Assembly (NCBI RefSeq): GCF_000218625.1
Contig: NC_015672.1
Span: forward strand, 124,001 to 188,000
Origin: Flexistipes sinusarabici DSM 4947
GTDB lineage: Bacteria; Chrysiogenota; Deferribacteres; Deferribacterales; Flexistipitaceae
Length of the DNA: 64,000 bases
Direction: 5' to 3'
The notes under the pieces were generated by a model. The model made no database searches, was not told the DNA's origin, and worked only from the letters and a program-made list of their open reading frames with translations. A program made the position numbers and the translations under genes. Shown in pieces: positions 11,265 through 54,184 of the stretch; the first letter of the stretch is position 1; every line of letters begins with the position of its first letter.

Positions 11265-11296
11265 GGAGATTCGCAGAAATTAATAATATATAAAGG

Positions 11297-19259: not shown

Positions 19260-19429
19260 TACTATTTTTGGGCTAAAAATCATTTGATATCAAAATATTA
19301 TATGAATATGCATATATTTATATACAAAAAAGGCAATATTCTGAACCTATGATATAGAAAAATCCTATAGACTTGCTATGGTTTGAAGTGGTAAACAAAT
19401 ATCTAAAAAACTAATGAGATCACTTATAA

Positions 19430-19712
19430 TTCAAGTTTCGCACTTCGTTTTGTCTAGCATTCGCTTTTAGCGAACATATAGAATGTTAAACATATTTACC
19501 AGTCTAAAAGACTGGTGCTAGCCATAGGCATCCTTGCGACTGAGCACTTAAGAATTTAAGTGCTCGGTTGTGGCAATCTCAAGACAAGAAAAGTAGAGAG
19601 ATTGCTTCGTCGTTTTCACTCCCTGCCCTGTTAAATGCCACAGGCAATCAGCGAAGCTGATATTTAACAGGGTGAACAAAGACGTGAAAACAGTGCAAGG
19701 GCAAAACTTGAA
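19430..19712. mobile_element. MITE-like element, family with 6-bp target duplication (copy 1)
   Basis: The 283-bp element has ends TTCAAGTTTCGCACTT and (reverse complement of the right end) TTCAAGTTTTGCCCTT. It is flanked by a perfect 6-bp direct repeat TTATAA at 19424-19429 and 19713-19718. Inside are hairpin modules: CTAAAAGACTGG-type, GAGCACTTAAG / CTTAAGTGCTC, and the CCCTGTTAAAT...ATTTAACAGGG stem. No coding region is present. It is in the opposite orientation to the copy at 39833-40196, to which its interior is nearly identical except for one insertion. The rest of the gap (19217-19429, 19719-19907) is AT-rich without recognised features. Confidence 0.8.
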
Positions 19713-19907
19713 TTATAATTTTTTCCTGTCTGCATTCATGGCTATGTAAAGGTTTTTAGTAACAGTTTCTGCGATTCTGCTTAGCATTAGACGTATTCTG
19801 GTAAATATATTATTTTCACAAACTTATCGATTTTTGGAGGATGCTAGTGAAACACATTTGACATCAATCTCTTCATTTGTGGAAATTATATTTATTGATC
19901 TAAAGTA

Positions 19908-39753: not shown

Positions 39754-39832
39754 TGCTTACTCCGGATATCTCCTGTAATTTAACTGTTTTTAGTCAATAG
39801 TAAAAAAGAACCCATGTAAATTATACTTCTAA

Positions 39833-40196
39833 CACAAATTTCGCACTTGCACTTATTGCACGTCTTTGTTCACCCTGTTAAATATCAGCTTCGCTGATTG
39901 CCTGTGGCATTTAACAGGGCAGGGAGTGATAACGACGAAGCAAAATCTAATACCTATACGAGATTGCTTCGCTACGCTCGCAATGACGGACAAACCACGT
40001 AATTACGAGGAACGGAGTCCCGAAGTAATCTCATGTCTCTTACGGGAGATTGCCACAACCGAGCACTTAAATTCTTAAGTGCTCGGTCGCAAGGATGCCT
40101 ATGGCTAACACCAGTCTTTTAGACTGGTAAATATATTTAACATTCTATATGTTCGCTAAAAGCGAATGCTATACAAAACAAAGTGCGAAACTTGAG
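39833..40196. mobile_element. MITE-like element, family with 6-bp target duplication (copy 3)
   Basis: A 364-bp element with ends CACAAATTTCGCACTT and AAGTGCGAAACTTGAG and a perfect 6-bp flanking repeat TTCTAA (39827-39832, 40197-40202). It shares nearly its whole interior with copy 1 but carries an extra segment of about 85 bp (roughly 39957-40040) of the GAGATTGCTTCGCTACGCTCGCAATGACG type, which looks like a nested repeat insertion. It fills most of the gap between the EamA gene and the nitroreductase fragment. Confidence 0.82.
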
Positions 40197-40295
40197 TTCT
40201 AAGTATTTTTTAAAATTTTTATTGGTATCTGATTGTGCAGGTATTATACTTAAACATAAGTCTGGATACAAACTTTTCCACACAAAGGGGGCTTT

Positions 40296-52765: not shown

Positions 52766-54184
52766 CTAATATCTGTAATATTCCGGTTTATAAGGCCCTT
52801 CAACTTTCACACCGATGTAATCAGCCTGTTCTTTTGTCAATGTTGTCAGCTTTACACCAATTTTTTCCAGATGCAGTCTTGCAACTTCCTCGTCAAGTTT
52901 TTTAGCCAGCATGTAAACCCCAGGTTTATATGTATCTTTATTTTTCCACAAATCAATTTGAGCCAGGACTTGATTAGCAAAAGAGTTGGACATCACAAAG
53001 GAAGGGTGGCCTGTTGCACAGCCTAAATTTACAAGTCTTCCTTCAGCAAGCATGAAAATTTCGTGTCCGTCCGGAAAACGGTATTTATCCACCTGAGGTT
53101 TAATATTTTCCTTTTTTATACCCGGGATACCGTTGAGCTGGGATACCTGTATCTCGTTATCAAAATGCCCTATATTACATACGATTGCCTGATCCTTCAT
53201 TTGCTCCATGTGCCCGGCTTTTATCACATCCCTGTTTCCTGTAGCCGTTATGTATATATCCCCTGTTCCGAGAGTGTCTTCCAGTGTTTTAACTTCATAG
53301 CCTTCCATGGATGCCTGAAGTGCACAGATGGGGTCGATTTCCGTGACAATTACTCTAGCCCCCATTCCTCTGAGAGCCTGAGCGCATCCCTTCCCAACAT
53401 CCCCATAACCGCAAATAACGGCTGTCTTGCCAGCTATCATGACATCGGTTGCGCGTTTTATGCCGTCTATAAGTGATTCTCTGCACCCGTAAAGGTTGTC
53501 AAACTTGGATTTTGTTACAGAATCATTTACATTGATAGCGGGTATGAGAAGTTCTCCAGTTTGCCTCATCTGATATAACCTGTGAACACCGGTTGTTGTT
53601 TCCTCGGATACTCCTTTTAAATTTTTTACAAGTTTCTCCCAAAAACTGTTGTCCCTCTGACTTATAAGTTTGAGTCGTGCTAACAATTCTTTTTCATCCT
53701 CACCATCAGGTGTCTTATCAAGTAGTGACGGATCCTGTTCGGATTGATATCCTAAATGAACCATTAACGTCGCGTCCCCTCCGTCATCTACAATCAGATT
53801 AGGACCGCCGTCTTCAAATGAAAGAGCCTGCTCTGTGCACCACCAGTATTCTTCCAAAGTTTCCCCTTTCCAGGCAAATACCGGAATCCCGGCTTCTGCA
53901 ATAGCTGCTGCAGCGTGATCCTGTGTGGAGAAGATATTGCAGCTTGCCCATCTAACATTTGCACCGAGCTCAACGAGCGTTTCTATCAAGACAGCTGTTT
54001 GAATTGTCATGTGGAGGCTTCCGGATATCTTTACGCCTTTCAAAGGTTTCTCGTCTGCATATTTTTCTCTGATCGCTATCAAGCCGGGCATTTCCTTTTC
54101 GGCTATTTTTATCTCTTTTCTACCCCAGTCAGCGAGGGTTATATCTTTAATTTTATAGTTCTCTTTTTGCACCTTCATATTCAC
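52766..54184 (-). CDS. ahcY: adenosylhomocysteinase
   Basis: A 472-residue NAD-dependent enzyme that splits S-adenosylhomocysteine to adenosine and homocysteine, recycling the product of methyl transfer. Seen are [18 protein letters not shown] near the N-terminus, the NAD-binding loop [28 protein letters not shown] and the C-terminal [22 protein letters not shown] with the Lys and Tyr that close the cofactor site. The long insert typical of many bacterial enzymes is present. No SAH-riboswitch-like sequence was found upstream. Confidence 0.96.

Follow-up and report, generated by a model that had tools for sequence, protein, structure and literature searches.

Flexistipes, a heat- and salt-loving bacterium, carries a genuine MITE family of a known kind in which the hairpin modules turn over unusually fast: ends and insertion site are kept, but at most of the sites shared by two genomes the internal hairpins have changed. 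The usual view of MITEs is that of frozen deletion derivatives. What seems less usual here, for a family whose parent type can be identified, is that unlike hairpins are replaced at fixed sites, and the family thereby offers a countable system for measuring the recombination of bacterial hairpin repeats. The explanation that we favour as a whole, and consider probably right, is a MITE mobilised by an IS4_4-type transposase, followed by exchange of hairpin modules between copies.

The window, that is, the whole stretch of 64,000 nucleotides that was analysed, corresponds to positions 124001-188000 of a single-contig genome of 2,526,590 bases (genome label G000). The original prediction described copy 1 as a 283-bp non-coding element between TTATAA duplications, with further copies at 34934 and 39833, and all three were found as described (window coordinates):

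19424..19429, no strand: left target duplication TTATAA of copy 1, read from the sequence
19430..19712, forward strand: copy 1, a 283-bp MITE between exact TTATAA duplications
19430..19445, forward strand: left terminal repeat of copy 1, TTCAAGTTTCGCACTT
19454..19533, forward strand: hairpin module M2 of copy 1, long form, beginning CTAGCATTCGC (boundaries by eye)
19540..19569, forward strand: tip hairpin of copy 1, type T2 (CTGAGCACTTAAGAATTTAAGTGCTCGG; boundaries by eye)
19626..19672, forward strand: hairpin module M1 of copy 1 (CCCTGTTAAAT...ATTTAACAGGG)
19697..19712, reverse strand: right terminal repeat of copy 1, degenerate (2 mismatches in 14)
19713..19718, no strand: right target duplication TTATAA of copy 1
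34928..34933, no strand: left duplication AAATCA of copy 2
34934..35127, forward strand: copy 2, 194 bp, with tip T1 and M1 (G000 position 158933)
35128..35133, no strand: right duplication AAATCA of copy 2
39827..39832, no strand: left duplication TTCTAA of copy 3
39833..40196, forward strand: copy 3, 364 bp, with M1, S block, T2 and M2 (G000 position 163832)
40197..40202, no strand: right duplication TTCTAA of copy 3

The 14-bp end was found six times in the window with at most 2 mismatches, against 0.64 expected, a count reached in 0 of 100 shuffles. No overlap of more than 30 bp between copies 1-3 and any ORF of at least 100 aa was found in the window ORF list, and the RNA folds of the three copies lie well below those of dinucleotide shuffles (z about -8 each).

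Across G000, the end CAAGTTTCGCACTT is present 33 times in forward and 32 times in reverse orientation with at most 1 mismatch (65 in all), while the reversed control yields 1 + 0 matches; the congener G001 holds 105. The constant ends announced from three copies thus hold genome-wide. Pairing was done within fetched stretches and gave 28 pairs to test, one of them spanning the record start, with the 2 bases past CAAG counted as element. Exact duplications flank 15 of these 28 pairs (nine of 6 bp and six of 7 bp), against an expectation from mispaired left and right flanks of 0.15 and 0.07, respectively, or about 0.2 together. Among the 41 distinct paired elements of G001, 25 are duplicated (13 of 6 bp, 11 of 7 bp and 1 of 8 bp) and 16 are not; in the mispaired control, 34 of 1640 combinations give a duplication of 6-9 bp. 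The predicted 6-bp duplications are hence real, but their length is 6 or 7 bp (7 bp in 6 of the 15 exact cases), and the remaining 13 G000 pairs have no exact duplication at the standard position. Copies of the kind held to speak against the prediction, those lacking a 6-bp duplication, do therefore exist, although one of the 13 unmatched pairs is explained by an empty site that shows its duplication to be decayed (see below). Two minor observations concern single copies: the genome record begins inside a copy of the family (G000:C1:2526505-2526590 + 1-48), and in the congener another MITE (TTGGCACCCTCCCA.../...TGGGAGGTTGCTAA) is inserted in a family copy, apparently duplicating AAAAGACT (L274 900-1386).

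That this is a real MITE family follows from comparison with G001, a same-genus draft assembly in 30 contigs: sites filled in one genome are empty in the other, with a single target copy, and this holds in either direction. One of the sites empty in G000 lies in the window:

about 11278..11289, no strand: empty site AATTAATAATAT in G000, with a single TTAATAA

At this site G001 holds a copy of 140 bp (end to end) between duplicated TTAATAA. G000 is likewise empty at 1877762, with one TTAATA where G001 has an element; at 2408043, with one TAATTA and 218 bp between the flanks but no element inside; and at a fourth site, 1176281, where the target has diverged. In the reverse direction, 677379 is filled in G000 and empty in G001. 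The G000 flanks of this element, TTGGGA and TTGAGC, seem unmatched, and the TTGAGA of the empty G001 site identifies them as a decayed duplication. Copy 1 itself is missing from G001, yet the region is otherwise diverged and so leaves no clean empty-site footprint.

These sites bear on the possibility that the repeats are immobile, being conserved RNA or terminator elements of intergenic regions that recombination has spread. The strong folds would fit such elements, as would their location: 25 of 27 G000 pairs are clear of ORFs of at least 100 aa (overlap threshold 30 bp), the remaining two overlapping ORFs of 145 and 106 aa. As a full explanation, immobility is nevertheless refuted by the empty sites with one target copy, together with the 6-7-bp duplications, and no Rfam match was found in the window. 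Furthermore, 10 of the 27 elements have divergent neighbouring genes and 15 co-directional ones, with a single convergent case and one undefined (counts for which no expectation was computed), a context that argues against terminators and favours entry into AT-rich DNA upstream of genes. We regard immobility as very improbable; a regulatory side effect of the MITE is possible.

Elements of the family have in common some 30 bp at either end as well as the GAGATTGC/GCAATCTC arms. The variable modules are the tip (T1, T2 or T3), the 47-bp hairpin M1, the hairpin pair M2 (in a long and a short form) and the S block, and they were called from matches over at least 80% of the length with at least 75% identity. 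At least two further G000 element types, whose ends are different (TAAGCA...; TTAGCAACCTCCCA...), also contain the hairpins M1, M2 and T2, for example at 992687, 1759621, 2436101 and 2454265.

Nine orthologous sites from the fetched stretches of G000 and G001 have both ends intact in both genomes (G000 158933, 163832, 53768, 2406884, 2199172, 2166671, 1755048, 240535 and 872186). Left out were 1144782 and 1680020, where one end is lost in G000, and 1173216, which is truncated in G000; 677379 and 2408043 were scored as empty sites. The flanks of the nine are about 89-98.5% identical. Modules differ at seven of them, the same architecture being kept at 240535 and 872186, which bears out the proposal that internal hairpins are gained or lost. 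At the site of copy 2, G001 has a 143-bp version in which M1 is replaced by CGAG and the rest of the element is identical. At that of copy 3, G001 has 272 bp, with T1 present and the S block absent. The tip is T3 in G000 and T1 in G001 at 2166671, with one other base differing within the element, and T2 and T1, respectively, at 1755048. Differences in M1 run both ways: it is gained in G000 at 158933 and in G001 at 2406884 and at 53768, where only G001 has it. At three sites the change concerns M1 alone or is an exchange of the tip while the element is otherwise short; re-insertion at the same spot is unlikely there, since the terminal bases and the flanks are the same.

A draft assembly could produce such differences artificially if repeats in G001 had been filled with the commonest variant, T1. 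Indeed, G001 is in 30 contigs, and its 41 elements carry T1 in 34 cases, T2 in 2, T3 in 1 and no tip in 4, against 8, 10, 4 and 5, respectively, in the 27 elements of finished G000, an excess of T1 that collapse would also give. However, next to the swapped modules G001 preserves arms and loops that are peculiar to the individual copy and agree with the orthologue in G000 (at 2166674, for example), the M1 differences occur in both directions, and rare T2 and T3 copies are retained in G001. An artefact of this kind therefore appears unlikely as the whole cause, although the draft state of G001 is the chief reservation about the module differences, some of which could come from misassembled repeats.

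We favour instead a real exchange, in which an inserted element would stay in place while its modules (tip T1/T2/T3, M1, M2 and S block) are swapped with those of other copies. Both states of each module can be found in further copies within one genome, and the exchanged blocks are bordered by short sequences that every copy shares. For these reasons the simplest route would be recombination over short tracts, or template switching during replication, with the shared stems as anchors; we give it about an even chance.

Alternatively, the modules could be independently mobile REP-like units that enter and leave the stem tips by means of Y1/HUH transposases of the RAYT kind. In G000, M1 and M2 are also found inside elements with other ends and M1 occurs alone in intergenic DNA; Y1_Tnp genes are present in G000 and G001, and one G001 Y1 region (the overlapping L298 and L300) has M1-like and T2-like sequences downstream. 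At the other six of the eight Y1 loci examined, however, there is no significant module match, and the events are replacements, such as CGAG for a 55-bp block, rather than clean insertions, with T1, T2 and T3 swapping at one position. The resemblance to REP, BIME and REPIN sequences with their RAYT lies in small palindromic modules arranged in mosaics, as far as the accessible parts of the sources describe them (PMC3733652, PMC2817692, PMC3116915); unlike them, the Flexistipes MITE has DDE-type terminal repeats and target duplications. Of the eight Y1 loci examined, two that overlap in one region have modules nearby. We consider REP-like mobility improbable. Equally doubtful is a more specific form of exchange, in which the element would be a fixed docking scaffold for a dedicated hairpin-exchange or conversion process, faster than point mutation and homogenising the tip genome by genome; if it were so, unrelated MITE families of one genome would draw on one hairpin pool.

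The absence of an autonomous parent from the window, noted in the original prediction, is confirmed, and the searches of the whole genome and of two congeners found none either. The search for an insertion sequence with the same ends, by contrast, was successful in another genus. Outside Flexistipes, only G031 (same order, other family) exceeds three such ends among the 59 relatives searched, with 9 + 9. These bound a 1522-bp insertion sequence with a 466-aa transposase that matches NCBIfam NF049925 (transpos_IS4_4; 335 bits, cut-off 250) and also Pfam DDE_5 and DDE_Tnp_1, and that has 14 full-length and 4 partial matches in its own genome. Its ends, CTCAAGTTTCGCACCTT or CTCAAGTTTCGCATCTT, have the first 14 bases in common with the 16-bp MITE end CTCAAGTTTCGCACTT. 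The duplication length is shared as well: counted from the flanks, 7 of 11 distinct copies have exact duplications of 6-7 bp (TTAATAA, TAGGTAT, TTACTCA, ACAGTAA, TTATAA, AAAATAA and TTAACTA), and an eighth (L223) pairs with an end 103 bp further out. The MITE differs from NF049925 insertion sequences in having neither a transposase nor a common interior, which makes it a derivative of the type and not a member.

With the G031 transposase as query, no match was found in G000, G001 or G002 (a Flexistipes congener genome, 88% complete), G031 serving as positive control. The NF049925 profile likewise returned nothing over its cut-off in these three genomes, G000 having 15 weak matches of up to 39 bits. 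Two kinds of candidate within G000 were rejected. The only paired ends more than 1 kb apart (G000:C1:1346347-1347604; L025 1501-2758) enclose ParE-like toxin genes and hairpins and no transposase, and three transposase families (about 473, 378 and 587-621 aa) were read for the ends, which are absent from them. The first of these candidates is a 1.26-kb relative with the same ends and no exact flank duplication, an exception among the 27 G000 elements in that it carries short ORFs; between long direct repeats lie an ORF of 69 aa and, downstream of it, one for a 90-aa ParE-like toxin (PF05016, 39 bits). As a separate observation, DDE_Tnp_1 has 115 matches in G000 and 1 in each of the two congeners, indicating a strong expansion of insertion sequences in the G000 strain.

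Mobilisation would accordingly involve an IS4_4-type (NF049925) DDE transposase that came from a past insertion sequence with CTCAAGTTTCGCAC ends and acted in trans, cutting and pasting or copying the MITE into AT-rich intergenic DNA and leaving a 6-7-bp duplication. We infer that this type did the moving and was later lost from Flexistipes or only visited it. Because insertions differ between G000 and G001, a transposase was present after the two split, or something unrecognised supplies it. Besides the pairs without an exact duplication and the missing footprint of copy 1, two further points count against this best explanation: an unrecognised G000 transposase, among the 115 DDE_Tnp_1 matches, could be the mover, the ends having been checked in three insertion-sequence families only, and the insertions post-date the split of the two genomes, yet the searches of three Flexistipes genomes, of which G002 is 88% complete and G001 a draft, turned up no present-day transposase for the MITE.

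Several known systems resemble this family in part. Bacterial MITEs derived from insertion sequences include RUP, NEMIS/Correia, Nezha and ERIC (PMC3733652, PMC3049150). As portrayed in the available portions of these reviews, they share with the Flexistipes family a size class of 70-300 bp, terminal inverted repeats, target duplication, a non-coding and intergenic nature, folding and an insertion sequence with the same ends; they differ in that Flexistipes modules are exchanged at fixed loci and that the parent-type insertion sequence was found only in another genus. In BOX elements of Streptococcus pneumoniae, too, the ends are constant, and strains differ in the internal modules that a given locus contains (PMC3049150). 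In the accessible account, however, BOX varies in the number of tandem boxB units, whereas the Flexistipes MITE swaps unlike hairpins and, unlike BOX, has exact duplications of the insertion-sequence type and an identified parent type. The genome paper of F. sinusarabici MAS10T reports 86 transposase genes, and its available text was found to hold no mention of MITEs (PMC3236037). Literature searches with the end and module strings CAAGTTTCGCA and GTCATTGCGAG found no relevant paper, and no published description of the Flexistipes MITE family was found in a search that included the accessible parts of PMC3236037, PMC3733652, PMC3049150 and PMC8147514.

The same ends recur in other phyla. A wider 15-mer scan of genome contigs gave at least 118 stretches from many phyla, most of them single 15-mers and possibly due to chance; among the matches listed, 13 of the 118 stretches have a facing pair of ends within 3.5 kb. 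Two Bacteroidetes transposases beside such ends are 27% identical to that of G031, and both pass NF049925 (361 and 304 bits). This connects a widespread end sequence with a single transposase model across several phyla and should aid the annotation of orphan MITEs. Short ORF-free pairs in Cloacimonadota, Bacteroidetes and Neomarinimicrobiota (L123, L138, L140, L144 and L184) look like further MITEs. In Singulisphaera, an element of about 1622 bp (L143, L149 and L194) is bounded by almost identical ends (TTCAAGTTTCGCA); its transposase, however, matches the NCBIfam model IS701_3 (275 bits, cut-off 170), and its duplications appear to be 5-bp CTNAG (by eye). The end motif therefore goes beyond a single transposase model. 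Finally, in the Erysipelotrichaceae MAG MI.10_11 (L100, L124, L129, L141, L154 and others), many contigs stop about 40-50 bases from a TCAAGTTTCGCACTT end, a pattern that would be expected had an insertion sequence with such ends broken the assembly.
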